Below are positions 21,638 through 39,389 of a stretch of DNA of 64,000 nucleotides, piece by piece (position 1 is the first letter of the stretch; every line of letters starts with the position of its first letter). The notes below the pieces were generated by a model. It worked only from the letters and a program-made list of their open reading frames with translations. It was not told the origin of the DNA and ran no database searches. The stretch comes from Marinobacterium lutimaris. GTDB taxonomy: Bacteria; Pseudomonadota; Gammaproteobacteria; Pseudomonadales; Balneatricaceae. The stretch spans positions 434,001-498,000 of the forward strand of contig NZ_FNVQ01000002.1 in the NCBI RefSeq assembly GCF_900108065.1, read 5' to 3'. The position numbers and the translations under genes are program-made.

Positions 21638-22320
21638 CCCTTTTCGCTACCCTTATCTTTCTTACCGCTACTCTGATGATATGCATCGATAGCTTCGTTA
21701 ATGTCGTCAAACCAGATCGCTTGTCCCTGGTTGAGCCAAATGCCGGATTGACACAAATCTTTCAAAATCCCCTCTGAGTGGGACACCATGATGATGCTTG
21801 CTTTTCCTATCCGGTCACTAAACGCCTTGGTAGCCTTCGCCCTGAAGGCCCTGTCACCGACAGCTGTCGCCTCATCCGATAAATAGACATCGAAGTCGAA
21901 TGCAAGCGAAAGGCCGAAATTCAGCCTTGATCGCATACCTGAGGAGTAGCTCCTTACTGGCTCATCAAAGGCTTGCCCTATCTCTGCAAATTCCTCGACT
22001 CGCGCGACGATATTGTCAATATCATCTCGGCTGCCGTGAACACGAGCGACAAAGCGCACATTCTGCCGCCCGGTCATAGATCCTTGCAGCCCGCCGCCAA
22101 GGCCGATTGGCCATGAGATACGGCTGTCAGTGGCAATCCGGCCCCGATCAGGGCTATCCATCCCCCCTATCAATCGCAACAGCGTGGATTTGCCTGCGCC
22201 GTTGCGGCCAACAAGTCCCACGCTGACATTGCTGGGGATTTCGATATTTACATCTTTGAGCACCCAGTCACTTCCATGGTGGTTGTGATAGCGCTTGTAG
22301 AGGTTTTCCACTTTTATCAT
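21634..22320 (-). CDS. kpsT: Capsule ABC transporter ATP-binding protein KpsT
   Basis: 228 residues. Walker A GRNGAGKST (38-46), signature-like YSSGMRSRLNFGLSLAF and Walker B with DVYLSDEATAVGD. The SGMRSRL form of the signature is characteristic of polysaccharide exporters (KpsT/Wzt/BexA). It drives export of finished capsule glycolipid across the inner membrane with KpsM. ATGA overlaps with both kpsM and kpsE. Confidence 0.95.
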   Translation of the reverse strand: MIKVENLYKRYHNHHGSDWVLKDVNIEIPSNVSVGLVGRNGAGKSTLLRLIGGMDSPDRGRIATDSRISWPIGLGGGLQGSMTGRQNVRFVARVHGSRDDIDNIVARVEEFAEIGQAFDEPVRSYSSGMRSRLNFGLSLAFDFDVYLSDEATAVGDRAFRAKATKAFSDRIGKASIIMVSHSEGILKDLCQSGIWLNQGQAIWFDDINEAIDAYHQSSGKKDKGSEKG

Positions 22321-23108
22321 TGCCGCTTTAACCTCAACTCAAAGCGAACATGCAGCATTAGGCCCAAGGTGATCATCGCTAAAGCCCAATACCAGAGATA
22401 CAGTAGACTGGTGCCATGCACCGGTCTGTAAAGGGGGAAGAATGTTGCACGCAGGGTTTCCAGACCGTGCACGATGGGGTTCCACATCACATAGACCAGC
22501 AGATCATGGGGCACAAAATTCAGAGGAACGATCACACCCGAGATAATCAGCAAAGGCATGGAAATAATACGTAGAATCTTACCTATCTCCGGAACCAGCC
22601 CCGCGAGTGCAGAAAATACAAGGCCTGCACCTAACCCCAGGCACCAGAGCGAAAACCAGGCTCCGAGCGCAGCCAAAGGCTCCGCAGGCACAAGATCGAC
22701 ATCCAGAAGCGTACCTACCACAATAAACAGAATAAAAACAAAGGATCTAAGCAGCCCCTCCAGATAACATCGCACGAAAACTGGATCAATTGGCTTTACC
22801 TGCCGGTAGGAAAACAACCCTTTATTCGCGTCAATGGCCCCGATGGGGCGCATCATGTTTTCCCGCACTAGGTAGAAGCCAAACAGGCCGGTAATCATCC
22901 AGGGGATAAGTTCTGCACCATCAATATGGCGCATATTGCCCATGATCACGGTACGGATGAGAACCATCACCACAATCATCGCAATCGGTTCAAACAGCAT
23001 CCAGAACCAGGCCATACGGTCAGCCATGGTCCGGGCAAGCGCTTCTCGGATAAACATGGCGTGCCAGACCGAGCGGGTGACCTGCCAGGGTGTTCTTGTA
23101 CTCTGCAC
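22317..23108 (-). CDS. kpsM: Capsule ABC transporter permease KpsM
   Basis: 263 residues with six predicted membrane segments and an N-terminal amphipathic part, typical of ABC-2 polysaccharide permeases (KpsM/BexB). The segment GLFSYRQVKPIDPVFVR and the C-terminal MWNPIVHGLETLR match the family. It forms the inner-membrane channel with KpsT. The gene starts 66 bp after kpsD and overlaps kpsT by 4 bp. Confidence 0.94.
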   Translation of the reverse strand: MQSTRTPWQVTRSVWHAMFIREALARTMADRMAWFWMLFEPIAMIVVMVLIRTVIMGNMRHIDGAELIPWMITGLFGFYLVRENMMRPIGAIDANKGLFSYRQVKPIDPVFVRCYLEGLLRSFVFILFIVVGTLLDVDLVPAEPLAALGAWFSLWCLGLGAGLVFSALAGLVPEIGKILRIISMPLLIISGVIVPLNFVPHDLLVYVMWNPIVHGLETLRATFFPLYRPVHGTSLLYLWYWALAMITLGLMLHVRFELRLKRQ

Positions 23109-23174: not shown

Positions 23175-24887
23175 TTAAAGGTCGAGTGCGACCTTCGTCG
23201 CCACAGCAATCTGGTATACGATCTGGCTGATGCTGGTGGCCAACTGCAGGTTCTTGGTCGGCACTAGCGGCAGCACCAAAACTTCGTCACCGGGTTTCAA
23301 AGTGACATCTTCAGCCTTGCGCAGTTCACCGTTCATACGTACCACCAGGATATTCTCGTCATCAGCGTGCTGACTAAAGCCGCCGGAGCTTTCGATGTAA
23401 TCCATCACGGTCAGCCCCTGTTTGTAGACCATAGACTGAGGTACCAAAACCTCTCCGCTGACCAGGATAGAGTCCCTGTACTCAGGCAGCGTAATGATGT
23501 CGCCATCCTGCAGGCGGATATTGCTGATTTGATCGTCATGGGAGACCACCAACCGGCCGTTAGGCTCAACCTCTGAGGCGCGGGCTACAAAATTGCCGAT
23601 CAGCTCCGCTTCCTTGATGCGAATATCTGCTTCTTCAGGTGTAGAGGAAGGCGCAGACAGGTAGTTGGTTTCCAGACGACGCAGGCTGTCTTTAAGTGCT
23701 TCTTTCTGCTGCTCGGCCACGGAGAGCCTGCGAAGTGAGATGCTGCGGGTATCGGTTAACTCCTGCGGGACTGCGATGGCATCAAGCAGTTCCTGTAACC
23801 TTGCGTCTTTTGGCAACGCATAGCGAGAAGGCCCGTAGAAGCTACCTTCCAGTTGAACAACGATGGTCTCGTCGCGCTGATCCGAGCTGAATAGAACCTC
23901 GTCGCCGCTGCGTAGCGCCTGCTGAGACAGTTCCTCAACTGGCAGGTACACAGAAATAGGCCTGTTTTTACGATTACCACGTAGAAGCACATGAGACACG
24001 TCGGATTTGGTGCGTGCCAGTGCCAGCAATTCACTGCCAGTCATTTGATTAGGCTGGAGTTCGTAGCGGTAGTCACGTTCAACGTCGCCTGTAACTACGA
24101 CAGCCGGCCCGCGTTCGGAGATCACGATGGTGTCGCCGTCACGAAACTGTGGCGTCGGCATTTTGCCGTTCAGCAGGAAGTCATAGAGATCTGCCGTAGC
24201 GATTATCTCGTTGTTGCGCTTAACGATGATGTTACGGTAGCTGCCGAGACGGCTGTCGATACCACCAGCCTGATCGATAAAATAGAGCAGTGAGTCAGTC
24301 GGCGTACCCGCATAGCGGCCAGGGTGTTCAACATACCCTGTGACGAAAACCGCAACCGGCTGCACACCCTGGAGGTTGGTGTAAACTTGGACCCCTTCGG
24401 GATAAACCGATTTAACGGCCGATGTTACCTTCGAGTTCAGCTCACCGTTGGTGCTGCCCTGAACTTTTACAGGACCAATACCCGGGATAAAGATATTGCC
24501 CTGGGCATCGACCGGTAGAATCCGTTCGATCTCTACTGCACCCCATACCCTGAGCGTGACCTGATCGCCGGGTACGAGACGATAGGTGGTATTGAGGCCA
24601 TCGGCCCGGACGCCGCTAAAGCCACCATTAAACAGGTGACTGCCAAAGGGCTCTACGAGCTCCATACCAGCTTCAGAGCGCATCTGGCCTGGAGCTTTGC
24701 TGTAACGGGCGGTTTGCCAATCAGTGCGGGACTGCTGCTCTTCGATGGTCTGCGGTACCGGTTGCGCCTGTTCCATCCCGGGCAGAATACCGGTGCTATC
24801 TATGCCTATCGCCTGCACCTGGCTGGTCAGGGTCAATGCACCCAGGCCCAGCAGAATCGGGCGGAATAATGCTTTGATCTGTTTCAT
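23175..24887 (-). CDS. kpsD: Polysaccharide export protein KpsD/Wza-like
   Basis: 570 residues from ATG 24887, close to KpsD (~558). A signal peptide MKQIKALFRPILLGLGALTL...VQA precedes the mature part; there is no lipobox. A Poly_export domain at ~95-180 (YRLVPGDQVTLRVWG) is followed by SLBB-type beta-grasp repeats. The frame stays open to 24947, but that would overlap the lipoprotein gene and displace the signal peptide, so ATG 24887 is chosen. It acts in the periplasm/outer membrane as the exit channel component. Confidence 0.9.
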   Translation of the reverse strand: MKQIKALFRPILLGLGALTLTSQVQAIGIDSTGILPGMEQAQPVPQTIEEQQSRTDWQTARYSKAPGQMRSEAGMELVEPFGSHLFNGGFSGVRADGLNTTYRLVPGDQVTLRVWGAVEIERILPVDAQGNIFIPGIGPVKVQGSTNGELNSKVTSAVKSVYPEGVQVYTNLQGVQPVAVFVTGYVEHPGRYAGTPTDSLLYFIDQAGGIDSRLGSYRNIIVKRNNEIIATADLYDFLLNGKMPTPQFRDGDTIVISERGPAVVVTGDVERDYRYELQPNQMTGSELLALARTKSDVSHVLLRGNRKNRPISVYLPVEELSQQALRSGDEVLFSSDQRDETIVVQLEGSFYGPSRYALPKDARLQELLDAIAVPQELTDTRSISLRRLSVAEQQKEALKDSLRRLETNYLSAPSSTPEEADIRIKEAELIGNFVARASEVEPNGRLVVSHDDQISNIRLQDGDIITLPEYRDSILVSGEVLVPQSMVYKQGLTVMDYIESSGGFSQHADDENILVVRMNGELRKAEDVTLKPGDEVLVLPLVPTKNLQLATSISQIVYQIAVATKVALDL

Positions 24888-24901
24888 ACGAAGTACCGGG
24901 T

Positions 24902-25306
24902 TTATTGGGCTTTGAGCAGTTGAGTAACCGGACGTACCGCCACCCACTGGTTATTTTGCTGACAGGCGATGGCGACCCTGGCCGATTGAGCAGCTGGGAT
25001 TACCTGTAGACGGAGGCATTCACGCCCGGACCCGGCATAGTACTGACTCTGCACGATCACATCGGCATGACTGCCCCAGGGCGTCTGGTCAAAATAAGCA
25101 GAGGCCTGCTCGGCGGAGTTATTAAAGAACTGCTGCAATTCAGGGTTGAGGTAGTTGGGCTCTGCCGCTTCGGCCTGCCAATGGGAGCCAGAGGGCACAG
25201 TGGATGTTTGCGCGCAACCGGCTAGCGAGCCGACACAGAACAGAGCTGCCAGCAGCCGTGACTTGCTGCTAAAGAAAGGGGTCTGCATACCTACAGATAA
25301 CTCCAT
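24902..25306 (-). CDS. Small lipoprotein preceding kpsD
   Basis: 134 residues. Signal peptide with lipobox L-A-G-C (Cys31 from the first ATG); a second in-frame ATG at 25288 would give a shorter, more usual signal. The mature part (~100 residues) has three further cysteines and no family I recognise. It lies 14 bp upstream of kpsD on the same strand. KpsD here lacks a lipid anchor, so this lipoprotein may be an export accessory factor (inference). Confidence 0.72.
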   Translation of the reverse strand: MELSVGMQTPFFSSKSRLLAALFCVGSLAGCAQTSTVPSGSHWQAEAAEPNYLNPELQQFFNNSAEQASAYFDQTPWGSHADVIVQSQYYAGSGRECLRLQVIPAAQSARVAIACQQNNQWVAVRPVTQLLKAQ

Positions 25307-25434: not shown

Positions 25435-26754
25435 TCAGGATGCCTTCCTCTGCAATAGCAGAGCTTCAAGGGTAAAATCGATCTGGGCTTCAGTGTGTTC
25501 GCTGCAGACAAAGAAGCGCAAACGCGCGCTCTTTTCTGGCACCGCCGGATACAAGATCGGCTGTACATTTATACCCTGCTTCAACAGCTCAACAGATTGA
25601 CGCGTCGCAACCAGTGAACTTCCACTTATTACCGGCACCACCGCCCGGCCTATACTTTCCCCCACATCGAAACCCGCGGCCTTTGCCTGGACGGCAAGAT
25701 ATTCTGAATTTTTCTGCAGCGCCCGGACCCGTTCGGGCTCAGCATGCATTATCCGAAGCGACTCTATCGCCGCAGCTGCGACACTGGCGGGCATACCGAC
25801 ACTGTACAGGAAGCCCGGCGCAAAATGGCGCAGCATATCAATCAGCGGCTGACAGCCTGCGATATAGCCGCCACAGCCAGACAGATTCTTGCTCAGCGTA
25901 CCCATCCAGATATCGACACGGTTCGGGTCGATGCCAGCATGCTCGTGACTACCTAGCCCCTTCTCCCCCAGGACACCAAGTGCATGAGCCTCATCCACCA
26001 TCAGCCAGCATTCATGGGTCTCTTTCAGTTCAATCAGGCCCGCCAGGTCGGGCGCATCGCCATCCATGCTGTAAAGGCCTTCGACAACGATCAACACCCG
26101 TTCGAACTGATGACGATTTTGCTGCAAAAGCTTTTCAAGATGATTAAGGTCGTTATGACGGAATGCCATACGCCGGGCACCGGATAACTGAGAACCCATC
26201 AGGCTGCTGTTGTGGATGTACTCATCATGCAGCACCAGATCCCGGCTACCCATCAGATAACCTATCACGGTTACGTTGGTCGCATGACCGCTAACGAACG
26301 CAAGCGCGTCATCAGCCTGATAGACCTGTGCCAGTGCCTGCTCCAACTCCCGATGAATCGGACGCTCGCCTGATACCATCCGACTGGCGGAAACCGAAGT
26401 GCCGTATTTCGCTGCAGCCTGCTGGGCTGCGGCGATCACACGCGGATCACCGGACAGCCCCAGGTAGTTGTAGCTGGCGAAGTTGATACACTCGCGGCCA
26501 TCAATAATGGCTGTGGCGCCGGAACAGCCCTCATGCACTCGGAAAAACGGATCTTCAACCCCCAGTTTCTGCGCACTTTCGCGCATGATGTTCAGCTGCT
26601 GCCAGCCAGGGTGCTGACAAAAATCGGTGCGCCGATTAGGTGTTGACGCACCCGTCATCAGGCTGCCACTGCTCGCCTTGCGGTCATTGCGTTTTAGTTT
26701 GCGCTGAACAGATTGTTCGATCAGACGCTGCTTCATCGATTGCGCGACTTTCAA
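25435..26754 (-). CDS. Alpha-oxoamine synthase (BioF/KBL/SPT family, RkpG-like)
   Basis: 439 residues, PLP-dependent. Visible: substrate-site D-EYIHNSSLMG-SQLSGA (~176-192), VEGLYSMDGD, D254-E-A-H257, and the PLP lysine Lys289 in TLSKNLSGCGG. These enzymes join an acyl thioester to an amino acid with loss of CO2, giving an alpha-amino ketone. The gene overlaps the stop of the giant PKS by 4 bp (ATGA), so the PKS-bound acyl chain is the likely acyl donor. The same PKS/oxoamine synthase pairing occurs in the rhizobial rkp capsule locus. BioF itself is unlikely, since no other biotin genes are near. The amino acid used is unknown. Confidence 0.85.
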   Translation of the reverse strand: MKVAQSMKQRLIEQSVQRKLKRNDRKASSGSLMTGASTPNRRTDFCQHPGWQQLNIMRESAQKLGVEDPFFRVHEGCSGATAIIDGRECINFASYNYLGLSGDPRVIAAAQQAAAKYGTSVSASRMVSGERPIHRELEQALAQVYQADDALAFVSGHATNVTVIGYLMGSRDLVLHDEYIHNSSLMGSQLSGARRMAFRHNDLNHLEKLLQQNRHQFERVLIVVEGLYSMDGDAPDLAGLIELKETHECWLMVDEAHALGVLGEKGLGSHEHAGIDPNRVDIWMGTLSKNLSGCGGYIAGCQPLIDMLRHFAPGFLYSVGMPASVAAAAIESLRIMHAEPERVRALQKNSEYLAVQAKAAGFDVGESIGRAVVPVISGSSLVATRQSVELLKQGINVQPILYPAVPEKSARLRFFVCSEHTEAQIDFTLEALLLQRKAS

Positions 26755-29700
26755 CTACCTTTTACCTCCTTTTCACTCACGCCGTGCTGAGCAGCAATCT
26801 GGGCATGTGTTACATCATCACTGTCGTCATGCTCACCGCTGATACGCTCCTGCAGCTTAACGGATAGCTTCGCAATGGTCGGAGACTCACTGATCGCCAT
26901 CGCCGGCAGTTGCACACCGAAGCGATCCTCTATCGCAGTGATCAGCTCGACGCCCATCAGCGAGTCAAAGCCCAGGTCATAGACCGACTGTTCGGGATTG
27001 ATCTGATCCGCGGATAGCATCAGGATCTGCCCAAGGCTCTGCTTCAGCTCCTCAGCAATCCTGACCAGCTGTTCCTCTGGCTCCAAACTCAGTAGTTCTG
27101 CCAGCAGGTCCCCACCCTTGTCACCGCTATCACTGCCGTCATGACTGCGAGCAATCAACTGGTAACGTGCAGCATTCGCCTTGGGAAGGAAGCGCGCGAG
27201 TGCCGACCAATCAAACTCCATTACACCCAGCAGCGACTGGTTCTGCAATAGCATCTGCTCCAATACTGCCAAAGCACGGGCCGTGGTAAGCGCGTCGCCA
27301 CCCATGCGAGACTGCAGTGCCTGCTTAATCTGGGTATTGCGGGCCAGGTAGCCGGCATCATCAATCGCGCCCCAGCGCACACAGGTTGCTGCCAGTCCCT
27401 GAGCTTTGCGCAGGTGCGTCAGCGCCTCCAGAGCCAGGTTCGCGGCTACGTAGTTCGCCTGACCCGGGTTACCGAACAGAGTCGTAGCCGAAGAGAACAT
27501 CAGGAATAGCTCAATCGGCTTATCCACTGTCAGTTCATGCAGGTACTGGGCACCAAAAGCCTTGGCTCCCAAAACCTGCGAGATCTGCTCGTCGCTCATG
27601 TTTTCTACCAGGCCGTCGGCAAAGACGGTGGCGGCATGCACCACACCGGCAAGAGACGGCTGCTGTTGCTCGATAAGCTCCAGCGTTTCTTGCAGAAGGG
27701 CCTTATCTGATACATCACAGGCATAAGCCTGAACGTCAACGCCCTGATCAGATAGCTGAGCGATAATCTCAGCCTCGCCGCCTTCAGCCTTACCTCGGCG
27801 ACTGAGCAGGGCCAGGTGGCGTACACCCTTTTCAACAAGCCACTGAGCCGTACGCAGACCAAAGCCACCGAGGCCGCCGGTCACCAGGAAGGTTTTATCG
27901 GCCGACAGCTTCAGGCTCTCCAGTTGCTGCAGCGGCGGCTGCGAAGCGTCAGGAAGCCGCGGGTAGTTAACCACGACCTTGCCGATCTGCTTAGCCTGTT
28001 GCATATAGCGGAACGCATCGACCACATTAGATGCGGCAAACGCCGTATACGGCAGCGGGTAGAGTTCACCCTCTTCAAACAGGGCCATCATCTCCCGGAA
28101 CAGCGTCCGGGTCAGTGTCGGATGAACCTTCATCAACTGGTCAGAATCGATGCCGAAATAGCTGATGTTATTGCGGAACGGACGCAGGCCTATTGCCGTG
28201 TTCTCGTAGAAGTCGCGTTTGCCCAACTCAAGGAAGCGACCGAAGGGGCGCAACACTCGCAAGTTCTGATTAACCGCTTCCCCCGCCAGGGAGTTGAGCA
28301 CCACATCCACACCCTGCCCGTCGGTATCGGCAAGAATCTCTTCTGCAAAGGTGTGGCTGCGCGAATCATAAATCGCGTCGATGCCCAGCAGGCGCACCAC
28401 ATCCCGTTTGCTGGCAGAACCGACTGTGGTGAAGATTTCAGCGCCCATCAGGCGACCGATCTGGATAGCGGCAAGGCCCACCCCACCGGCGGCGCCATGA
28501 ATCAGCAGTCGCTCACCGGGCTGCAGCCGCGCCAGATGTTTGAGCGCGTAGTACACGGTGAAGAAAGTGGTCGGAATCGTCGCTGCCGCTTCAAAGCTGA
28601 TATCGGCGGGAAGGTGCGCCAGGGTTTCAGCCCCGGTCACCATCTGAGTGCTGAAGCTGGCGGAGCCAAAGCCAACCACCTTGTCACCAGGACGGAAGTC
28701 GGTTACGCCAGCGCCCACCGATGTGACGATACCGGCAAACTCAAGCCCCATGGCTGGGCCAGAGAAACCGTTCTCGATCGCCTCATCAGCCAACAAGCCA
28801 AGCGCGTACATCACATCGCGGAAGTTAAGCCCGGTAGCCTTGACCTCAACGGCTACCTCTTCATCCCCTGGCAGCGCCAGTTCACGAGGCTTCCAACGCA
28901 GATTCTTCAACTGTCCAGGCTGATCAAACCCAAGAGTAAAGCTCTGATTCGGTTCGCCACTATCCTCTCGCTCGGCCGGTTTAGCGTGCATCAAACGCGG
29001 CACGTATCGCTCACCGGCAGCAACGAGATATTGCTCATCCTCATCAACCGAACAGCTCAAAGCCTGCTCAAAGGCAGCCGCATCAATCTCAGCGGGATCA
29101 GCAGGCAGATCGATCAACTGCAGAGGCAACGCTGTTTCATTCATCAGGGTGCGAACAAAGCCCCAGACAGCGGTCTGGCTGATAACCTGTTCGCTCTGCG
29201 GTAGCGCTTGCGGAGTTAGCTGAGCCGCACCCACGCCGGCCGTAATTACTGTCAGACGAATCGCTTCATCCTTGGCATCAAGCGATTTCACCAGGTCACG
29301 GATCTCTGCACAGCGCTTTGTCGTCTGCTCTGGCGAGCCTTCGGACCAAGCCCCTGCCAACAGAACAACCTGCGTCGTTTGTGACGAATCTACCTCTTCG
29401 GAAAGCTGACCCAGCAGATCATCGGAACTGGAAAATGCCTGCGCCCTTTCGCAGTGAGATAGCAGCTCGTCGCTCAATGCCTGAGCGGTCTGATCGGTCA
29501 ACACCAGCAACCGCGCCGGCTCACCCGAATCATCGACCTCTACTTCCAGCGGCTGCGACGCCGCCAGCAGGAAGGCACTGCCCGGCTGCTCAGGATCTTC
29601 CAGTTGCTGCGCAATTTCATAGCCAAGACCGGAGAGCAAGCGGGTCCAATGGGCGACGCCTGGCTGCAGGCTGCCCTCCTGCTCCAGCAGATCAGACGCT

Positions 29701-32700
29701 GCACTTGAAAGCTGCTCCAGCCAGAACGCCTGGGGCAGCCCCATCAGCATGACCTGCGCTCCCGTCCGGAGTTTCGTGCGCAACTGCTGCAGCAACTGAC
29801 GCACCTCGGACGGGCGCATAAAGTCCAGATGGATAATAACCAGGTCCAGCAAACCCAACTCAGCGGGCAGAGTCTGTTTATCCCAGTGCAGCGCCTGCAG
29901 CTGTTCAGGGTTATGAAGCTGGGCACGCGCCTCTGTAACGGCGGCCGACGAACTGCTCAGGAAGCAGAGCTCTGCATTAACGCCTTTGATCTGCGCTGCC
30001 AGCGACGGTGTCAGGATCATCTCTCCTGCGCATACTTCCGCCATCGCCAGACGCTGGCCCGGCTGCAGATCCTGTAGCTGTGCGTGCAACTGCTCAGCCA
30101 GCAGATCACGGAATACGGCTTCTCGGGCCGGTTCATAGCGTGCGCGGTAGGTTTCACTCCAGGCTCGTTCGGTTAATTCCGGCAATGAGCCGGTCTGGTG
30201 CAACCATTCGGACAGGTGCAAACCAAAACGACCCACCGCATGCACAGGCCCAAAGGCTTCAGGATACTCACGCAACAGCAGTTCCCACAGGCCAGCCAAG
30301 TCGACTTCCGGCGGTTCAGGAACAATCAGGTCACCTGCTTCGTTTTCGGCCAGCATTCCCTGTTTGATGGCCATTTCTGCCCAGCGCTTCTGCTGGTCAC
30401 CCAACTGAGCCAGACGCACAGGTTTCTCGCTGACCCCATGCTCGAGTCCAGCCAGCACCAGGGTATCCAACAGCGGCTCGACTTCGGTGATCATCCGGTC
30501 TTCGGATTGATCGGCAAAAAACGGTGCTAACGCCTGCAATAAAGCGGTGTGGTTCACCGCAGAGGGAACCTGTGGCAGCGGCAGCGGCAGCAACGGCATA
30601 TCCAGTTTGGAAATAGCCAGTGACTGCTGTTTACGTAACGGCACCGCCTTGAAACGGACGCCGGTCAGCACTGCAACCGCTTCACCCTCGGCATCGAAGA
30701 GCTCAACTTCGGCCAGAAGCGAATGCGGCGAACGGCGCACCAGCCGCACCCGAACCAGCGCAGGAATGACGCCTATATTCGCCCGGCTAAATTGGAGGCG
30801 TTCAATCTGAACCGGCACATAACCGAAGCCGCCACGGTTTTTTTCCTGAGCCAACAGCGGGATAAATAGCTGGAAAGCTGTATCCAGGATACCGGGGTGC
30901 AACAGCAAGCCATCATGGGTCTGCTTGATCTCTTCAGTAGGCTGGTAACGGCCGATAACGGTGTCGCCGTCGACCCAGCCTTCGCTGACGCCCTGGAACG
31001 CAGGACCATAATCCAGGCCGATATGGGACGCCGCGGACAGATGCTGCTCACGATTAAAGTCTGCTGCCCGTTCCGGTATTCCTGGTCCCTGACGATCCAG
31101 GAGGCGGCCGGCGCTACCGGCAAACCAACGTGCCTTAACGTGATTCTGCCACTCGCCTTCATGAGCGTATGGGCGTGCTTTGATGCGCAGCTTGCCGCTC
31201 ACTTCTTCGAGGCTAGTGCTCACTACCTTGGTAGTGCCCGCCTCCAGCAGCATCGGCGCCTGGATTTCGAGGCCTTCGATATCGATCCAAGCCGCGTCGG
31301 ATTCATGCTCAAGCAGGTGCTGTTCAATAGCGGCCAGCGCGAGCTCCGCATAACCGGCACCCGGGAATACAACGCCATCACCCACCACATGATCCGCCAG
31401 CCAGGGCTGGCGTCCGGTATCCAGCTGCGACTCCCATATTCCGGGCTGATGCGGCAACGTATAACCAAGCAGCGGGTGACGATAGTGACGCGACAACAGG
31501 CCCAGAGACTCAGTGCTGTCTGGCTTCCAGTAAGGCTGTTTCTGCCAGGGGTAGTCCGGCAGCGCGACAGCCTTGCCCTGCACCGGGAACCAGGCGCTTT
31601 CATCGATTTTCGCGCCGCTCAGAATCAACTCAGCCAGGGCTCTTTCAAGCTCCTCTGCGCCATCCTGACCACGAGACAGGGTTGCAATCACCTGGCCCTG
31701 AAGATCTTCGGCCCGCAGGCATTCATTGAGGTAAGTGCGCAATACGGGATGTGCACCAATTTCAATGAATGTCCGCTGACCCTTTTCGAGGCAATTCGAT
31801 ATCGCCTTTTCAAACAGCACCGGCTGGCGGATATTGCGCCACCAGTATTCAGCATCCAGAGATTTACCGCCCAGCTCCTCACCAGTCACCGTGGAGATAA
31901 ACGGAATTTCACTGTCGCCCGGCTGCAATCCGGCCAACGCCTCTTTCAGGCCGGTTTCGATCGGATCCATACAGGGGCTGTGGAATGCGTAATTCAGGCT
32001 CAAGCGTTTGAAGCGAACGCTCTGCTCCCTTAAACGGGTTTCGATCAGCTCGAGTTGAGCGGGCTCGCCGGCCAGCGTAGAGCCTTTCGCACTGTTGACG
32101 CCAGCAACGGCAACGCGGTCGCATTCAAGCTCAGCGATCAGATCATTAAGGCTCTGCTCGTCCAGTGCGACGGCGGTCATTTCACCACTGCCCGCAGTTT
32201 GTCCCTGGTAGTGACTGCGGATACAAATGACGCGCGCGGCCTGCTCCAGCGTCAGCGCGCCCGAGGCCCAGGCTGCAGCCACTTCACCGACGCTGTGGCC
32301 GGTCACGGCTACGGGCTTGATGCCCTGATCGCGCAGATAACGGGTCACCGCAACCTGAAGCGCGAACAGCGCCGGCTGCGCCAGCTCGGTCAGATCATAG
32401 CAGTCAGCTTCCTGAGGCTCTCCGAGTAGTTTTTCTACGTCGCATATATCAGAGTACTGCTTGATCAGCGCGTTAACTTCCGCGACGGTCTCGCGGACCT
32501 GGCTCGACTGTTCCAACAGCTGCCGGCCCATACCCGCCCACTGACAGCCGTTTCCGGAGTAGACCCAAACGCTGCCCTGCTCCTGCAGCTGCCTGCGTCC
32601 GCTGAATACACCCGAGTTCTCTTCATCCTTCGCAAAGGCCCTCAGCGCAGCTGCGGCACGTTCCTTATCCCTGGCCCAGAGCAACAATGCCTGTTCATGC

Positions 32701-34154
32701 TGTTCACGGCGGAAACGGGCACTCCAGCACAGGTTATAAAGACTCGCCGCATGAGCAGAAGCCAGCTGATCGGCGGTGCGCTCAGCCATCACCTTCAGCG
32801 CATCCGCGTTACGAGCGGTAAGAATCAGCGGCAGATCGCGGCCTGGCTCATGATCCGCTTCACTGATTTCAGATGCCTCCGGCGGGCTTTGCAAAATCAC
32901 GTGAGCATTGGCACCGCCAAAACCGAAGGAGTTAACGCCAATGGTTAACTGGCCGGTTTTAGGCAGTTCCAGAGTTTCGGTGACGGCTTCTATGTTCCAT
33001 TCATCGAAACGGATATTTGGGTTCGGCTTGCGCAAGCCAATGGTCGCCGGCACCTGGCGGTTATGAATCGACAGCAGCGCCTTGGCAAGGCCTGCTACGC
33101 CGGATGCGGTTTCCAGATGCCCGAGGTTGCTTTTGACGGAGCCTATTTTCAGCGGCTTGGTGCGCTGACGGGCCAGGGCCTCACTGATAGCCCGCGTCTC
33201 TATGGGGTCTCCCACAGAGGTGCCGGTACCATGGGCCTCGATATAATCGATCTGGTCCGGCTCCAGCCCTGCACGCTCACAGGCTTTGCGCATCAGCGCT
33301 ATCTGTGCATCCGGGTTGGGGACGGTAATCCCCGATTTATAGCCATCGGTATTGACAGCGGTTGCCGCTACGACGGCAATAATAGGATCACCGTCGGCAA
33401 CCGCTTTGTCGTAATCCTTGAGTAAGAAGACGCCACCGCCCTCGGAACGGACATAACCGTTGCCATCCTCATCCCAGACTTTGCAGCGCCCATCCGGAGA
33501 GAGCATGGTCGCCTTGGAGAAGATCATGAAGCCGTAGGGGTGCAGATGCAGACTGATCCCGCCGGTCAGAGCCAGGTCACTTTCACCGCTCAGGATCGAC
33601 TGACACGCCTGGTGAAAAGCCACCATAGACGAGGAACAGGCCGTATCCATTGAGACACTGGGGCCCTTCAGGTCAAACAGATAAGAAATTCGGTTGGAGG
33701 CGATACTGGAAGCGGTACCTGTACCGGTATTGGCATCGATGGCGCTGAAGTCATCGGCGAAACGGTAGGCGTAATCGACGGAAGCGATACCCATGAATAC
33801 ACCGGTATTGCTGCCACGCAGAGTGGAGGGCGCAATACAGGCGCGCTCCATCGCTTCCCAGCTCATCTCCAGCAGCAGGCGCTGCTGCGGGTCCATATGG
33901 GTCACTTCACGCGGAGACAGACCAAAAAATGCCGCGTCGAAACCGCTCACATCACCGAGGGATCCCGCCGCAAAGGTATAACTGCTACCCGGGTGTTTTT
34001 TATCTGGATGTTTCCATGCGTCCTTACTCCAGCGACTCTCATGGACTTCTGTCACCAGGTCACGTTTTTCGAGCAGGGCTTCCCAAAGGCTTTCAGTGTT
34101 GTCGCAGCTAGGCAAACGCAGTGAGCAACCGATAACAGCAATTCGCTTGTCCAT
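26751..34154 (-). CDS. Highly reducing type I polyketide/fatty acid synthase (RkpA-like)
   Basis: 2467 residues. Domains in order: KS 1-425 (DTACSSS, Cys173; EAHGTGT, His308; SNLGHLE, His346); AT ~525-840 (GHSVGE, Ser621; YAFH at 722-725); DH ~890-1170 (His922, Asp1091); ~1200-1600 a methyltransferase-like region without a proper SAM GxGxG loop; ER ~1805-2120 (GAAGGVGLAAIQ); KR ~2140-2330 (TGGLGGFG, YVAAN); ACP ~2375-2445 (GFDSLM, Ser2398). No thioesterase. KS-AT-DH-ER-KR-ACP is the set needed to build a saturated chain iteratively. It likely makes the fatty acyl part of the capsule lipid. The SD before ATG 34154 is weak. It is followed by the oxoamine synthase in an ATGA overlap. Confidence 0.92.
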   Translation of the reverse strand: MDKRIAVIGCSLRLPSCDNTESLWEALLEKRDLVTEVHESRWSKDAWKHPDKKHPGSSYTFAAGSLGDVSGFDAAFFGLSPREVTHMDPQQRLLLEMSWEAMERACIAPSTLRGSNTGVFMGIASVDYAYRFADDFSAIDANTGTGTASSIASNRISYLFDLKGPSVSMDTACSSSMVAFHQACQSILSGESDLALTGGISLHLHPYGFMIFSKATMLSPDGRCKVWDEDGNGYVRSEGGGVFLLKDYDKAVADGDPIIAVVAATAVNTDGYKSGITVPNPDAQIALMRKACERAGLEPDQIDYIEAHGTGTSVGDPIETRAISEALARQRTKPLKIGSVKSNLGHLETASGVAGLAKALLSIHNRQVPATIGLRKPNPNIRFDEWNIEAVTETLELPKTGQLTIGVNSFGFGGANAHVILQSPPEASEISEADHEPGRDLPLILTARNADALKVMAERTADQLASAHAASLYNLCWSARFRREQHEQALLLWARDKERAAAALRAFAKDEENSGVFSGRRQLQEQGSVWVYSGNGCQWAGMGRQLLEQSSQVRETVAEVNALIKQYSDICDVEKLLGEPQEADCYDLTELAQPALFALQVAVTRYLRDQGIKPVAVTGHSVGEVAAAWASGALTLEQAARVICIRSHYQGQTAGSGEMTAVALDEQSLNDLIAELECDRVAVAGVNSAKGSTLAGEPAQLELIETRLREQSVRFKRLSLNYAFHSPCMDPIETGLKEALAGLQPGDSEIPFISTVTGEELGGKSLDAEYWWRNIRQPVLFEKAISNCLEKGQRTFIEIGAHPVLRTYLNECLRAEDLQGQVIATLSRGQDGAEELERALAELILSGAKIDESAWFPVQGKAVALPDYPWQKQPYWKPDSTESLGLLSRHYRHPLLGYTLPHQPGIWESQLDTGRQPWLADHVVGDGVVFPGAGYAELALAAIEQHLLEHESDAAWIDIEGLEIQAPMLLEAGTTKVVSTSLEEVSGKLRIKARPYAHEGEWQNHVKARWFAGSAGRLLDRQGPGIPERAADFNREQHLSAASHIGLDYGPAFQGVSEGWVDGDTVIGRYQPTEEIKQTHDGLLLHPGILDTAFQLFIPLLAQEKNRGGFGYVPVQIERLQFSRANIGVIPALVRVRLVRRSPHSLLAEVELFDAEGEAVAVLTGVRFKAVPLRKQQSLAISKLDMPLLPLPLPQVPSAVNHTALLQALAPFFADQSEDRMITEVEPLLDTLVLAGLEHGVSEKPVRLAQLGDQQKRWAEMAIKQGMLAENEAGDLIVPEPPEVDLAGLWELLLREYPEAFGPVHAVGRFGLHLSEWLHQTGSLPELTERAWSETYRARYEPAREAVFRDLLAEQLHAQLQDLQPGQRLAMAEVCAGEMILTPSLAAQIKGVNAELCFLSSSSAAVTEARAQLHNPEQLQALHWDKQTLPAELGLLDLVIIHLDFMRPSEVRQLLQQLRTKLRTGAQVMLMGLPQAFWLEQLSSAASDLLEQEGSLQPGVAHWTRLLSGLGYEIAQQLEDPEQPGSAFLLAASQPLEVEVDDSGEPARLLVLTDQTAQALSDELLSHCERAQAFSSSDDLLGQLSEEVDSSQTTQVVLLAGAWSEGSPEQTTKRCAEIRDLVKSLDAKDEAIRLTVITAGVGAAQLTPQALPQSEQVISQTAVWGFVRTLMNETALPLQLIDLPADPAEIDAAAFEQALSCSVDEDEQYLVAAGERYVPRLMHAKPAEREDSGEPNQSFTLGFDQPGQLKNLRWKPRELALPGDEEVAVEVKATGLNFRDVMYALGLLADEAIENGFSGPAMGLEFAGIVTSVGAGVTDFRPGDKVVGFGSASFSTQMVTGAETLAHLPADISFEAAATIPTTFFTVYYALKHLARLQPGERLLIHGAAGGVGLAAIQIGRLMGAEIFTTVGSASKRDVVRLLGIDAIYDSRSHTFAEEILADTDGQGVDVVLNSLAGEAVNQNLRVLRPFGRFLELGKRDFYENTAIGLRPFRNNISYFGIDSDQLMKVHPTLTRTLFREMMALFEEGELYPLPYTAFAASNVVDAFRYMQQAKQIGKVVVNYPRLPDASQPPLQQLESLKLSADKTFLVTGGLGGFGLRTAQWLVEKGVRHLALLSRRGKAEGGEAEIIAQLSDQGVDVQAYACDVSDKALLQETLELIEQQQPSLAGVVHAATVFADGLVENMSDEQISQVLGAKAFGAQYLHELTVDKPIELFLMFSSATTLFGNPGQANYVAANLALEALTHLRKAQGLAATCVRWGAIDDAGYLARNTQIKQALQSRMGGDALTTARALAVLEQMLLQNQSLLGVMEFDWSALARFLPKANAARYQLIARSHDGSDSGDKGGDLLAELLSLEPEEQLVRIAEELKQSLGQILMLSADQINPEQSVYDLGFDSLMGVELITAIEDRFGVQLPAMAISESPTIAKLSVKLQERISGEHDDSDDVTHAQIAAQHGVSEKEVKGS

Positions 34155-34227
34155 CTATGTGTACAGTCCCGAGTCTAACTTCTTCGCAGTGTAACGCCGC
34201 ATAGTAGCAAATATACATACATCGTGT

Positions 34228-35742
34228 TTATAGACGACGGCGCTCTTTTATAATTTCCAGCCAACGGCATGCAAGATGCTCAGCCGCAAGCGTTTCAGTG
34301 CCCGGTTTTGTATCCACCCCGGCACCATTCGATCGGTCCGTAGACCAGATCAACCAGGGGGTATCCGGGCAGGGTTCGCCGAAACTCTGATACACATCGG
34401 CCATGATCGGTACGTGGTCACCATACCAGCACAAGGAGCCCCCACGGTCAGAACTTGCGACCGCTGCGGTTAACTCTGCGACCATCTCGTCAGCATGACG
34501 CAGGTGCCCAAGATAAACCGTCAAATCGTCGACAGGGCCTTGCGGCGGGTTTGTGTAGACCGCCTCCGCGAGCCCAGGTTCAGGCTGTTCGAGATGCAGA
34601 GGGCCATGATTTTCCATGGTGATCACAAAAATGAACAGCGGCTTATCAGACCCTGCCAGCAGCTCGCTGACCTTTTTCGTAACGGCGAGATCACCTGTGT
34701 ACTGACCGCAGCGATCGGCCTGATCAAAAGCCCTGATATCAATGAACTCATCAAACCCCAGCGCCGGCAACACCCGGTCGCGTTGATAAAAGTGCGCCAT
34801 GTAAGGGTGAACACAGACGGTCCTGTAGCCTTGAGCCCTGAGGTGCGAAGCCAGCGAAGAGACCGGAGTCTTCACCAGACGGCGATAGGGGTTGTAGCGA
34901 AAGATACCCATGGCACCTTCCGAAAGCCCGGTCAGAACCGAAGCTTCTGTACGCACCGTATTGGCGCCCCAGGCGGGAACGGAAAGCTGTCCACTGACAA
35001 CAGCCTCGGATACGCACTGATCCCAGTTTTCCAATACAGACGGTGCCACAAAGGGATAAGACTGACGAGGATCGAAAAAAGACTCACTCTGAACCAGCAC
35101 CAGGTTTGGCAGGCTGCCACCCTGCTTAAAAACCGGAAACTCGGACGCGGGTTCAGGAAGCTTTCTACCTCTCGCCAGCCAGTATTCAGCCAGGTGAGCA
35201 TGCAGCAGGGAGATCAGGCCAGCCGACTTCATATCCTCGACAGGCTGCAGGGCCAGCCGCGGCCTGATCAACCAGGCTATGCCTGCAGCAATGAAGGAGA
35301 TTGCCAAAGCCGACAGAGCAAGCTGCCACCAGGTAAGCAGCCCGTGGAACGATGGCTCCAGCCAGAAGAACAACCCGATTGCCAGAGCTCCGGCAGCCAG
35401 AAGCAGCAGCGTTTTTATAACGCCGAAAAAAGGGATATAGAGCCGGGGATGACGGATAGCGTCGGTAAAATACTCAAAATCCTGGAGAATGAAGGGCTCT
35501 TGTAGCGAGGTAAACTTGGCGTGGTTCACCGCAATCAGAACGCCGTGCAGAATCACCACCAGACTGACCGAGAAATAGAGCCTCTGACTCAACAGGCAAG
35601 CTGCTCCAAACCAGGCCAGCCACCAGGCCAAACCGCTCAGCACAGCATAAATACCCGGCAACCGCGGCTTGGCACCGACAGGGCTCACCAGGGCCCCCAT
35701 CAACAGCGAAATAACCAGACCTGAAACAACTACTATCAACAT
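34228..35742 (-). CDS. LtaS-like membrane sulfatase/phosphotransferase-fold protein
   Basis: 504 residues. About five N-terminal membrane segments (to ~160), then an alkaline phosphatase/sulfatase-superfamily domain facing the periplasm: VQSESFFD (Glu220 metal ligand), ANTVRTEAS (Thr265, catalytic nucleophile position), ITMENHGP and GDHVPIM. Relatives (LtaS, MdoB, EptA-type) transfer glycerol-phosphate or phosphoethanolamine from phospholipids. Here it may decorate the lipid or the capsule. It lies 6 bp after the SDR gene and 73 bp before the PKS. A similarly placed membrane protein occurs in rkp loci; orthology is not proven. Confidence 0.82.
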   Translation of the reverse strand: MLIVVVSGLVISLLMGALVSPVGAKPRLPGIYAVLSGLAWWLAWFGAACLLSQRLYFSVSLVVILHGVLIAVNHAKFTSLQEPFILQDFEYFTDAIRHPRLYIPFFGVIKTLLLLAAGALAIGLFFWLEPSFHGLLTWWQLALSALAISFIAAGIAWLIRPRLALQPVEDMKSAGLISLLHAHLAEYWLARGRKLPEPASEFPVFKQGGSLPNLVLVQSESFFDPRQSYPFVAPSVLENWDQCVSEAVVSGQLSVPAWGANTVRTEASVLTGLSEGAMGIFRYNPYRRLVKTPVSSLASHLRAQGYRTVCVHPYMAHFYQRDRVLPALGFDEFIDIRAFDQADRCGQYTGDLAVTKKVSELLAGSDKPLFIFVITMENHGPLHLEQPEPGLAEAVYTNPPQGPVDDLTVYLGHLRHADEMVAELTAAVASSDRGGSLCWYGDHVPIMADVYQSFGEPCPDTPWLIWSTDRSNGAGVDTKPGTETLAAEHLACRWLEIIKERRRL

Positions 35743-35748
35743 CGCGTA

Positions 35749-36507
35749 TCAGCCACCGAACCCCATCAACCGCAAAATCCGGTGTGACAGAGCCGCAGGC
35801 AGTACCGCCAGCCACCAGGTCCCCCAGTTCAGCGGGAAGGGAAAGCTGACCCGCGCACGACGGCGTTCTACTCTGGTGCGGATGAAACCTGCGGCACGCT
35901 CAGGCTTCCACAGAAAGGGCTTAGGTCCTGGCATTGCATCACACATGGCAGAACTGACATAACCCGGCATCACAACAGTGACCGAGACACCACTGCCGTT
36001 GAGCCAGCCTCGCAGCCCCTCTCCGTAGGCTTTCACGGCCGCCTTGCTGCCACTGTAGGCGGGCGTCACCGGCAAACCGAACCAGGCCGCCAGCGAACTG
36101 AGCAATACCAGTTGTCCACGGCCCTTCTGTTTCATCGCCAGCGCCAGCCGATGTACCAGATAAAAGGTTGAGCGCACATTTAACTCAAGCAGCTGTTCCG
36201 TTGCCTCCCAACTCTCACCCGCCTGATAGGGGCCCGTGTTGATATTCATCCCTGCATTGGCGAATACCAGGTCTGGAACCGAATCATTGAGGGTTTCATC
36301 CAGCCACTGTTCAAGAGCCGTTCTATCAGACAGATCGAGCGCCACGACGCTGACCTCAGCTCCCTGGCTCCGACATTTCTCCGCAACCTGCCCAAGTACC
36401 CCTGCGTTACGTCCCTGCAATATCAGCTGCGTGTCTTTTGTGGCGTATTCAAGAGCCAGGGCGCTACCGATGGAGCCCGTGGCCCCGGTTATCAATATCT
36501 TCGTCAT
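35749..36507 (-). CDS. Short-chain dehydrogenase/reductase (RkpH-like)
   Basis: 252 residues, classical SDR: TGATGSIG (7-14), NAG (84-86), Asn110, Ser138 and Y151-SGS-K155. The ~50 C-terminal residues are basic then hydrophobic (FPLNWGTWWLAVLPAALS), suggesting membrane contact, as in 3-ketosphinganine reductases. With an oxoamine synthase in the same operon, reduction of the alpha-amino ketone to an amino alcohol is the natural prediction. Overlaps kpsS by 4 bp. Confidence 0.85.
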   Translation of the reverse strand: MTKILITGATGSIGSALALEYATKDTQLILQGRNAGVLGQVAEKCRSQGAEVSVVALDLSDRTALEQWLDETLNDSVPDLVFANAGMNINTGPYQAGESWEATEQLLELNVRSTFYLVHRLALAMKQKGRGQLVLLSSLAAWFGLPVTPAYSGSKAAVKAYGEGLRGWLNGSGVSVTVVMPGYVSSAMCDAMPGPKPFLWKPERAAGFIRTRVERRRARVSFPFPLNWGTWWLAVLPAALSHRILRLMGFGG

Positions 36508-37766
36508 AGCGGGCAGGCCCTTAATAGGTTTTCAAGCGGCTGGTTTTCAGCGCAAAGCACCTTGGCGGCATTGGCGACGGCCATCTCGATCCCGTCAAAA
36601 CAGTAAAAGCCGCCATTAATCTGCGTGACATGCACAACAACCTTACGAAAGGCTTCAAACAACTCTTTATCGGGTTCACCAGCCTCACGCCAAAAACTGT
36701 CGATCCCCTGCTGCCAGGTCAGGCCTGGCAGATTGTAGATCGGGTCACTCAGGCACAGGGTTGGACGTTCCAGCCCCAGTGACACCATACCCACCGTACT
36801 GTTGACGGTCACCGTTCCGACGGAAAACTTGATCGCCTTTTCCAGGTTACCGGTCTCTATGTACTCCACCCGGTCATAAACACCAAAGCGTTTGGCCAGC
36901 AGCGCGATCTGCCCCGGGTAATCCACCAGGCCCATATCCAGCGGATGATTCTTGATCAGCAGGCGTGATTTACCCGGCGCATTCCGCGCGAAGGACTCGA
37001 GAATATACTCCATCGCCTGTTGCATATCGTCGAAACGGGAGTGATCGCGGATCTGCGCGTCCGTATTCAGCTGCAGTGGCAGTATAAAGAAGGGAAAATC
37101 GTCCGCTTCCTGACAGAGACGATCGATCAGCACGGCATCGCGCTTACGCCAGAAGCGCAGCCGCGCAAAGCGGTAGATATACCCCGCATATTCAACCGGC
37201 GCGGTAATCGGCGAATGGGTCTGATAGCGCGGATTCAAAACCAGATTCAGCATGCCCGCAACGTGATAGATCACGTCATAGCCGGAGCGCTTACGAAAAG
37301 CCGAATGGAATTTTTTCGCTTTTTCTTCTGGCCGGTCACGCAGATAGACAGCGGCTGCCCGGAACCAGTCTGGATCCCGGGGTAGCAGCGAGTGGCCGTT
37401 TACCCCTTCGCGTTCGAGAGTAACCCAAAAAGGACGAAAGTAGCCTTCCTCGAACACATGGGTACGGATACCAAAACGCTCGGCTCTTTCCACGGCGGGA
37501 CGATGCACGGGCCTGCGGTCACCAAACAGAATTTGATCCGTGATTCCCCAGCGTCGCCAAAGAGTTTCTATAAATGCAGGCAGTTGCTCCAGAGAGCCGC
37601 GAAAATGGGCGGAGTTACCCCGAGGCATCCAGTACGCCAGGTCACCGGCATTAAAGTTCACCTTATAGACCTTATGACCGCAGGCTTCTAAAGCATCCGC
37701 CAGACGAGCGAAAAATGGCGAAGCAACACCCTGCAACATCAAAAATGAACGCGTCTTTACTGCCAA
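36504..37766 (-). CDS. kpsS: KpsS-type capsule polysaccharide protein (Kdo transferase, RkpJ-like)
   Basis: 420 residues (E. coli KpsS ~389). Family hallmarks: LMLQGVASPFFARLADAL at the start, VFEEGYFRPFWVTLEREGVNGHS, LPLQLNTDAQIRDHS, IKNHPLDMG and NSTVGMVSLGLERPTLC. KpsS adds the first beta-Kdo to the lipid acceptor and KpsC extends it; both act at the cytosolic face of the inner membrane. It is the first gene of the long minus-strand cluster, with its promoter in the 415-bp gap facing dctP. Confidence 0.92.
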   Translation of the reverse strand: MAVKTRSFLMLQGVASPFFARLADALEACGHKVYKVNFNAGDLAYWMPRGNSAHFRGSLEQLPAFIETLWRRWGITDQILFGDRRPVHRPAVERAERFGIRTHVFEEGYFRPFWVTLEREGVNGHSLLPRDPDWFRAAAVYLRDRPEEKAKKFHSAFRKRSGYDVIYHVAGMLNLVLNPRYQTHSPITAPVEYAGYIYRFARLRFWRKRDAVLIDRLCQEADDFPFFILPLQLNTDAQIRDHSRFDDMQQAMEYILESFARNAPGKSRLLIKNHPLDMGLVDYPGQIALLAKRFGVYDRVEYIETGNLEKAIKFSVGTVTVNSTVGMVSLGLERPTLCLSDPIYNLPGLTWQQGIDSFWREAGEPDKELFEAFRKVVVHVTQINGGFYCFDGIEMAVANAAKVLCAENQPLENLLRACPL

Positions 37767-39192: not shown

Positions 39193-39193
39193 T

Positions 39194-39389
39194 CAGGCTA
39201 TTGAAAAACTATCTACGTTGCCGGAAGCAGCGTTAAAAACAGGCTCACAGGCTTTGCCTGAACGCACTTTAGTGCGGCCCCATAGGGGCGAGCGGAGCGA
39301 GTAATATGCTCATTTAGTTTACTAAACTCCGCTTTTTCGCCTGTTTTTGCCTTGCTCCGGCTGCCTCGATAACGCTTTTCAACAGCCTG
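39194..39389. repeat. 196-bp palindromic element between dctP and dctQ
   Basis: Two 51-nt arms (39194-39244 and 39339-39389) are imperfect inverted copies, both bounded by CAGGCT and AAAAACAGGC. The 94-nt centre holds nested hairpins: CGCACT-TT-AGTGCG (39263-39276), GCCCC-ATA-GGGGC, AGCGGAG...CTCCGCT and TTTAGT-TT-ACTAAA. It begins 1 bp after the dctP stop. It looks like an interspersed palindromic repeat that acts as mRNA stabiliser or partial terminator in the operon. Confidence 0.8.

Follow-up and report, generated by a model that had tools for sequence, protein, structure and literature searches.

In Escherichia coli capsules of groups 2 and 3, KpsS places 3-deoxy-D-manno-octulosonic acid (Kdo) on the glycerol head of (lyso-)phosphatidylglycerol (PG), according to the accessible portions of the literature. 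In Sinorhizobium meliloti, mutants of the rkp-1 region are K-polysaccharide-deficient and the region is required for poly-Kdo secretion, as far as the available texts go; the accessible part of a review credits rkp-1 with helping to make 'a specific lipid carrier', and the product of rkp-1 and of the wcb genes is called merely a 'lipid carrier' in the papers available in part. In Pseudomonas fluorescens MYb115, the polyketide synthase (PKS) SgaA and the alpha-oxoamine synthase (AOS) SgaB are required for C24-C28 sphinganines, according to the available part of the paper (Peters et al. 2025, PMC12134224). Purified SgaB is described there as a serine palmitoyltransferase (SPT) that condenses L-Ser with acyl-CoA and hardly uses Ala or Gly, the short-chain dehydrogenase/reductase (SDR) SgaC is proposed as the ketosphinganine reductase, lipids heavier by 154 Da are assigned 'most likely' as phosphoglycerol sphingolipids, and 6,101 homologous clusters are reported, with Burkholderia foremost; the strings 'capsul', 'rkp' and 'LtaS' each occur 0 times in its main text. 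The present analysis concerns a 64,000-nucleotide stretch of Marinobacterium lutimaris (GCF_900108065.1, contig NZ_FNVQ01000002.1, positions 434,001 to 498,000; hereafter the window), from a genome of 5.57 Mb in 21 contigs, in which genes for KpsS, an SDR, an LtaS-like membrane protein, a PKS and an AOS stand together within a Kps capsule locus and may supply the capsule with a sphingoid lipid anchor.

The five genes are the same five, by family and position, as rkpA, rkpG, rkpH, rkpI and rkpJ. The first-pass annotation had drawn this likeness for rkpA, rkpG, rkpH and rkpJ, which stands, and had left RkpI, the LtaS-like protein, off its list. All five open reading frames (ORFs) were recovered on the minus strand with their domains confirmed by Pfam, as were the 4-bp overlaps proposed for the kpsS/SDR and PKS/AOS joints; the successive junctions measure -4 bp (kpsS/SDR), +6 bp (SDR/LtaS-like), +73 bp (LtaS-like/PKS) and -4 bp (PKS/AOS), and GGAGG precedes the TTG start of the AOS gene. 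As in the PKS-derived sphingolipid pathway SgaABC, a complete reducing PKS without a thioesterase adjoins an AOS. Scanning named genomes with an AOS profile returned at least 554 relatives, of which the best 80 were retained as loci, with PKS kin in 78, SDR kin in 71, LtaS-like kin in 68 and KpsS in 30; partners are under-counted in these figures because the flanks end at 10 kb or less, and in many loci the stored flank stops about where KpsS would sit. These partner frequencies show that the set is not a chance grouping. Among the same best 80, the nearest named relative found is Marinobacterium mangrovicola, which has the same block with an AOS 93% identical to that of the window.

We propose that the PKS would use malonyl units to assemble a long saturated acyl chain, carried on its own ACP, that the AOS would release this chain by decarboxylative condensation with L-serine to give 3-ketosphinganine, and that the SDR would reduce the latter to sphinganine. 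The LtaS-like enzyme would then move phosphoglycerol from PG onto sphinganine, yielding a phosphoglycerol sphingolipid that resembles lyso-PG, to which the KpsS subfamily described below would add the first beta-Kdo before KpsC extends the linker and KpsMTED exports the chain on its sphingoid anchor. Taken as a whole, this five-step scheme is one towards which we lean modestly. Its first two steps correspond to reactions shown for the relative SgaAB; the third was only proposed there, as were phosphoglycerol sphingolipids, on the basis of mass. We infer the enzyme of the fourth step and the whole of the fifth. Phosphoglycerol sphinganine would present KpsS with the glycerol-phosphate end at which E. 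coli KpsS glycosylates (lyso-)PG. If the LtaS-like protein does add phosphoglycerol, the earlier suggestion of an anchor used in place of lyso-PG needs recasting, since the product would then imitate lyso-PG and not depart from it. The lipid may serve as KpsS acceptor and capsule anchor; this part of the first-pass annotation rests on gene linkage, on a KpsS clade and on loci of Novosphingobium, and is better supported than before by the clade and by loci without PKS. The gene set itself was already known, and what is new is the link of PKS/AOS sphingolipid chemistry to the capsule together with the proposed role of the LtaS-like protein.

The window KpsS scores 253.9 bits against the NCBIfam KpsS model NF050054, under its curated cut-off of 600. 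Among the 293 genomes of an order-level draw, KpsS was detected at E ≤ 1e-30 in 34, comprising 13 with an AOS at E ≤ 1e-100 and 21 without, one of the latter (G449) being 73% complete and belonging to a genus whose other KpsS-bearing members carry AOS; in a second draw, AOS was scored at E ≤ 1e-90. In a KpsS tree of 58 rows, a 36-row clade (support 98/92) unites 32 AOS-positive rows with two from Novosphingobium, one from Acidisoma and one from a Cupriavidus plasmid, and the 22 rows outside it are all AOS-negative, including KpsS from an E. coli plasmid; as regards plasmid rows L198, L200 and L201, 'AOS-negative' refers to the fetched stretch only. When only rows from the genome draws are counted, AOS-positive KpsS falls inside the clade in 16 of 16 cases and AOS-negative KpsS outside it in 20 of 20, and the AOS-negative label changes 2 times on the tree, versus 18.2 in shuffles. 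Four AOS-negative genomes (G191, G350, G388, G449) yielded no locus and were left out of the tree, three others (G009, G116, G145) were re-checked and hold AOS kin of 28-38% only, and two AOS-positive genomes added afterwards (G647, G678) also lie on the AOS-positive side. A quick KpsS tree gave the split a support of 94, not starred. The window KpsS lies inside the 36-row clade, outside the group of AOS-negative KpsS to which the E. coli protein belongs, and does not join the E. coli type.

These distributions bear directly on a different possibility, namely that the module supplies the outer membrane with free sphinganine and its phosphoglycerol form, co-produced with a capsule built on ordinary lyso-PG. 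The SgaAB products were indeed found as free lipids, in the available part of PMC12134224. Moreover, of the 25 distinct AOS-positive genomes in the two draws, 18 have a full-length KpsS and seven (G004, G092, G396, G461, G513, G604, G621) have none, which means that the PKS-AOS pair is not tied to the capsule and serves other ends too. Free lipids alone would nevertheless not readily account for the linkage of the module to kpsS in the same operon or region, for a KpsS subfamily that tracks AOS or a sphingolipid-making host family, for the absence of SDR or LtaS kin (E 1e-6) from all 10 fetched AOS-negative KpsS stretches of 12-20 kb, and for the K-polysaccharide and poly-Kdo secretion defects of rkp-1 mentioned above, so that we regard this explanation as unlikely.

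With regard to the LtaS-like protein, the solved proteins nearest to it in sequence are GacH (the closest, E 3e-12), LtaP and LtaS, and Foldseek searches with an AlphaFold2 model built from 22 rows (pLDDT 86.2) returned LtaP, GacH, MCR-1 and LtaS as the best matches. All 22 rows share QSES, Thr262, NHGP and GDH unchanged, and the window protein has the LtaS/LtaP/GacH-type fold with its nucleophilic Thr and metal-ligand motifs, residue roles that we assume to carry over from LtaS. It matches S. meliloti RkpI at 28% identity over 441 aa (E 1.5e-27), the unlisted gap ahead of KpsS on pSymB containing a 512-aa open frame that is LtaS-like kin; judging from sequence, RkpI is a member of the LtaS fold. 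In 1997, Kiss reportedly described RkpI as being without homology. The LtaS-like protein had been noticed in the set by the first-pass annotation and given no role there; the phosphoglycerol transfer is our proposal. At E ≤ 1e-100 its gene occurs in 5 of the 293 genomes of the order draw, every one of them positive for AOS and KpsS. Ahead of the catalytic domain lie about five hydrophobic helices, an arrangement like that of EptA and MCR-1, which makes a periplasmic active site probable. EptA and MCR-1 kin use phosphatidylethanolamine as donor, so that PG is a putative donor for the LtaS-like protein.

Loci that lack one or another part of the set are informative about its division of labour. 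Of three KpsS-bearing Novosphingobium plasmid records, two were examined, and each carries a sterol-desaturase-family gene (hydroxylase), an SDR, a lipoteichoic acid (LTA) synthase 27-28% identical to the window LtaS-like protein and 30-35% to RkpI, and KpsS. Neither PKS nor AOS is present in these two stretches, and none of the 15 plasmid records that hold AOS kin (E 1e-80) comes from Novosphingobium; the strains presumably possess a canonical SPT. Sphingolipid synthesis in their family is on record in the accessible literature, with Sphingomonas cited. In Acidisoma, an LTA synthase and KpsS accompany a hydroxylase-AOS-SDR series, with no PKS in the stretch. The KpsS proteins of both genera lie inside the AOS-positive clade, and their loci are those expected were the SDR-LtaS-KpsS part to act on a sphingoid base of any source. 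A fatty-acid hydroxylase gene likewise stands between SDR and KpsS in Pseudomaricurvus. In all eight LtaS-less genomes of the order draw that carry both AOS and KpsS, a Formyl_trans_N-type gene lies directly 3' of AOS, called by Pfam in three of the eight and as tblastn kin in the others; one genome (G074) carries LtaS and the formyltransferase both. GNAT genes adjoin the module in three loci (L004, L038, L197). Because formyl- and N-acetyltransferases act on amines, an amine-bearing product fits these neighbours, although the same genes could instead serve amino sugars, and a formyltransferase fragment match was also found in an AOS-negative locus (L156), about 9 kb from KpsS.

Further gene arrangements were observed among the related loci. 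A Formyl_trans_N-type gene lies beside AOS in L134-L141, L144-L147 and L163 (in L073, beside the SDR), which are capsule loci mostly without LtaS kin. In Caballeronia and Paraburkholderia (L179, 15036-15962; L197, 26178-27092), an LpxC-like deacetylase gene separates PKS from AOS; another lies near KpsS in L145 (10695-11567). PKS is missing from two of the best 80 loci, L073 and L083, the latter from Cobetia amphilecti, where the AOS (9902-11344) stands beside type I secretion and RTX genes.

The same data can be read in another way, in which the sphingoid is the anchor and the LtaS-like enzyme acts after export on the glycan or the exported lipid, as GacH does on a streptococcal polysaccharide, KpsS taking bare or N-formylated sphinganine. 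GacH as the closest solved relative by sequence, the probable periplasmic active site, the occurrence of formyltransferase genes instead of LtaS in the LtaS-less loci, and the placement of LtaS-bearing and LtaS-less KpsS mostly in separate subclades (S. meliloti and Shinella being exceptions) are all compatible with it, and a role of WcbQ in the glycan is suggested, with reference to the GacH work, in the accessible part of PMC11766843. By contrast, phosphoglycerol sphingolipids probably exist in the SgaAB strain (PMC12134224, available part), and LtaS stays with SDR and KpsS in the Novosphingobium loci that lack PKS and AOS, which suggests a role in the lipid and not in serotype. We give this version little probability and place it just behind the free-lipid explanation.

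For the sphinganine half of the five-step scheme, the best solved relative of the window AOS is an SPT, 3a2b. In an AOS tree of 48 rows, whose outgroup of five BioF/KBL-type rows and one SPT sits on long branches, a 42-row clade (support 100/99) unites the window AOS with RkpG, with the AOS of a Pseudomonas plasmid (L004), with betaproteobacterial AOSs (L071, L081, L085) and with the PKS-fused AOSs of Planktothrix and Streptomyces; the phylogenetic comparison with RkpG that the first-pass annotation had called for therefore places the window AOS with RkpG and not with BioF, KBL or SPT. A single Planktothrix polypeptide carries the AOS after its ACP, an arrangement indicating that the PKS hands its chain to the AOS. 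No kps genes are annotated in the stretches with the PKS-fused AOSs (L005, L006), and in genome G092 (L190) the AOS lies within a 1120-aa open frame. The window AOS stays below the cut-offs of the canonical bacterial SPT models NF047599, NF047600 and NF047603 (294.7/500, 295.1/640 and 236.1/670 bits), and the BioF model scores it higher, at 358.9 bits versus a cut-off of 426.45. The sole other match to the AOS in the window genome is 36% identical and groups with BioF; no canonical SPT over cut-off was found there, an SPT model adding two weak matches of 24-26 bits.

The Pseudomonas plasmid pair is 56% (AOS) and 47% (PKS) identical to the window proteins; MYb115 SgaA and SgaB are presumed to be direct sequence kin of the latter. 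Going by its locus tags, MYb115 could have four genes between AOS and SDR, the same number as on the plasmid. The single Pseudomonas entry in the 15-record plasmid listing is this plasmid's own, and a search of one family (f173, probably not Pseudomonadaceae) for a MYb115-type locus found none in 37. SgaAB and SgaC (the SDR step being proposed there), the AOS clade with RkpG and the PKS-fused AOSs, and the Planktothrix fusion give good support to the proposed sequence in which the PKS makes a chain, the AOS releases it and the SDR reduces the product to an amino alcohol. The sphinganine half of the earlier idea is, by analogy, published chemistry for a relative.

The PKS matches KS, AT, DH, ER, KR and ACP domains and, as had been noted, no thioesterase among the Pfam domains; its nearest solved relative by sequence is mycocerosic acid synthase. 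The KS, AT, DH, KR and ACP catalytic residues examined and the ER and KR cofactor motifs are kept in 14 of 14 aligned synthases, and the window PKS has Asp in place of Gly in the DH motif HxxxGxxxxP. Its AT reads YAFH, which we take to be of the malonyl type. A methyltransferase (MT)-like stretch at residues 1373-1465 scores 22 bits versus a cut-off of 27 and lacks GxGxG, part of which the Pseudomaricurvus PKS (L008) retains. An unbranched chain is expected because of this loss, and methyl-branching by the PKS was judged unlikely. The sponge swf synthases were set aside as kin of the set, their authors separating swf from RkpA and WcbR in the available text. That the AOS accepts an amino acid other than serine, or a short acyl chain, the lipid being an amino ketone or 1-deoxy-type amine, would agree with the sub-threshold SPT scores, the higher BioF score and a specificity that is unreadable from sequence here, and it is nonetheless very improbable given the strong preference of PKS-linked SgaB for L-Ser (PMC12134224, available part), an SPT as best solved relative and a PKS with a full reducing set.

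Several observations weigh against the proposed phosphoglycerol-sphingoid anchor. Besides the seven AOS-positive genomes without KpsS, the Cupriavidus plasmid row, whose fetched stretch holds no AOS, lies inside the KpsS clade, and shared inheritance of linked genes may account for part of the tracking between AOS and KpsS. Of the 13 order-draw genomes that carry AOS and KpsS, 8 yielded no LtaS-like gene, so that the fourth step is not universal, with the proviso that 5 candidates per genome were scored and several of the eight genomes are 70-88% complete, whereby some absences may be false; weaker LtaS-like matches occur in two AOS-negative genomes, G304 (1.7e-58) and G446 (1.9e-24). A probably periplasmic active site is a real difficulty because KpsS works at the cytoplasmic face; it would call for the lipid to cross the membrane or for the LtaS-like enzyme to act after export. 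The window SDR does not match the S. meliloti SDR (RkpH) at E 1e-5, the counterpart being an SDR by annotation and position. In Achromobacter and Burkholderia (L071, L081), PKS and AOS occur with no SDR or LtaS kin within 10 kb. In the available part of PMC12134224, induction of sgaAB raised sphinganines and not the phosphoglycerol sphingolipids 4 and 5. Among the open-licence papers listed, none was found that ties a sphingoid lipid to a capsule anchor, and no lipid-end analysis of a capsule of this type was found beyond the 'phospholipid anchor' of S. meliloti 1021 (Fraysse 2005, as cited), a description that fits ordinary PG and phosphoglycerol sphinganine equally.

Beyond the five genes, the window continues 3' with a 17-kDa-antigen-type gene, KpsD-, KpsM-, KpsT- and KpsE-like genes, dTDP-rhamnose genes and glycosyltransferases, PhyH and KpsC lying far downstream (Table 1). 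The PhyH dioxygenase was considered as a sphingoid hydroxylase of the module and rejected, its closest kin found (62%) adjoining KpsC in an AOS-negative stretch (L156); it probably is not part of the lipid module, as it recurs in capsule loci with and without AOS. The two genes are also direct neighbours in L004 and in L156, the latter without AOS, and stand near each other in L145-L147, which have AOS. In the glycan-specific part (8001-12126), the GC content falls to 38-39%. One ORF there (8235-9338) matches Sulfotransfer_2, and another (10861-12126) is 25% identical, as distant kin, to an ORF of L038 with a sulfotransferase-like look and no Pfam match; on account of these two, the capsule may be sulfated. 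A TRAP transporter operon on the plus strand (38182-41250) adjoins the kpsS end of the locus.

Table 1. Genes of the capsule locus in the window, with supporting profile matches
Feature	Position	Strand	Details
kpsS / rkpJ-like beta-Kdo transferase	36504..37766	-	420 aa, TTG start; Pfam PF05159 Capsule_synth 256.1 bits
SDR, rkpH position; proposed 3-ketosphinganine reductase	35749..36507	-	252 aa; Pfam adh_short 113.8 bits
LtaS-like membrane protein of phosphoglycerol-transferase fold, rkpI kin	34228..35742	-	504 aa; Pfam Sulfatase 108.3 bits
Iterative-type PKS, KS-AT-DH-(degenerate MT-like)-ER-KR-ACP, rkpA-like	26751..34154	-	2467 aa; Pfam
AOS, rkpG-like	25435..26754	-	439 aa, TTG start; Pfam Aminotran_1_2 163.5 bits
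Probable lipoprotein, small, 17-kDa common-antigen domain	24902..25306	-	PF16587; kin in L007, L041, L051
KpsD-like outer-membrane export protein	23175..24947	-	Poly_export, SLBB
KpsM-like permease	22317..23108	-	ABC2_membrane; NCBIfam KpsM 116.8 bits vs cut-off 300
KpsT-like ATPase	21634..22320	-	ABC_tran
KpsE-like chain co-polymerase	20537..21637	-	No Pfam match; named from position and kin beside KpsT in L007, L041, L051, L084
KpsC, distal in same locus	302..2281	-	Capsule_synth, three stretches
PhyH dioxygenase adjoining KpsC	2284..3333	-	Profile match

A broader proposition, on which our judgement is evenly balanced, is that Gram-negative capsules of a large class, in Halomonadaceae, rhizobia and Burkholderiales and in some Pseudomonas and sphingomonads, would be anchored by sphingolipids, combining sphinganine from PKS/AOS, or from an ordinary SPT in sphingomonads, with a phosphoglycerol head added by RkpI/WcbQ and a dedicated KpsS subfamily; elsewhere the amine would be N-formylated or N-acylated, or the base hydroxylated, and PKS sphingolipids would be precursors of capsule anchors. 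If this is true, phosphoglycerol sphinganine would be the rkp-1/wcb product, an answer for the capsules of symbionts and pathogens alike, and a lipid-making module of rhizobia and Burkholderia that has long been without a known product would be explained. The PKS sphingolipids described in 2025 would likewise gain a cellular role, sphingolipids would constitute a second anchor class for Kps capsules alongside PG, and the KpsS clade would predict anchor type, providing a sequence test.

Among the described systems, the window resembles S. meliloti rkp-1 in make-up, whose PKS, AOS and KpsS are 35-40%, 48% and 39% identical to those of the window and whose LtaS-like protein is also matched. The order on pSymB is PKS, AOS, SDR, then the gap with the LtaS-like frame and KpsS, and the PKS/AOS overlap is again 4 bp. 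Export and sugar genes of S. meliloti lie in rkp-3, as far as the available text indicates, with one export gene adjoining the module, whereas in the window the module sits inside one Kps locus with kpsS first. The wcbPQRT genes of Cobetia are called lipid carrier biosynthesis genes ('probably fatty acids') in the accessible description, with WcbQ annotated as an LTA synthase, and WcbR and WcbQ are also named in the available text on Halomonas piscis; the Halomonadaceae loci have the order SDR-LtaS-PKS-AOS, and wcbPQRT with kpsS in Burkholderia, Cobetia and Halomonas were likened to the window through the published description and related loci, not through named wcb proteins. SgaA, SgaB and SgaC of P. 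fluorescens provide PKS, AOS and SDR as in the window, and are known there, in the available account, as a secondary-metabolite cluster. On the Pseudomonas plasmid, PKS and AOS kin of the window's are found within a Kps locus together with LtaS, SDR and KpsS. A reducing PKS, an AOS and an SDR are also combined in fungal secondary metabolism, for fumonisin (Fum1/Fum8/Fum13) and sphingofungin (SphB/SphA/SphF); we know of no phosphoglycerol or glycan step in either. The accessible part of PMC12134224 counts FUM13 and SphF as homologues of ketosphinganine reductase. The E. coli group 2/3 system shares the Kdo transferases and KpsMTED export, according to the available sources, and differs in that the E. 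coli plasmid stretch carries no PKS, AOS, SDR or LtaS kin and its KpsS falls outside the window's clade. With PKS, AOS, SDR, LtaS-like protein and KpsS in one region, the window set is, as far as sequence comparison can tell, a capsule-lipid module of the rkp-1/wcb type.

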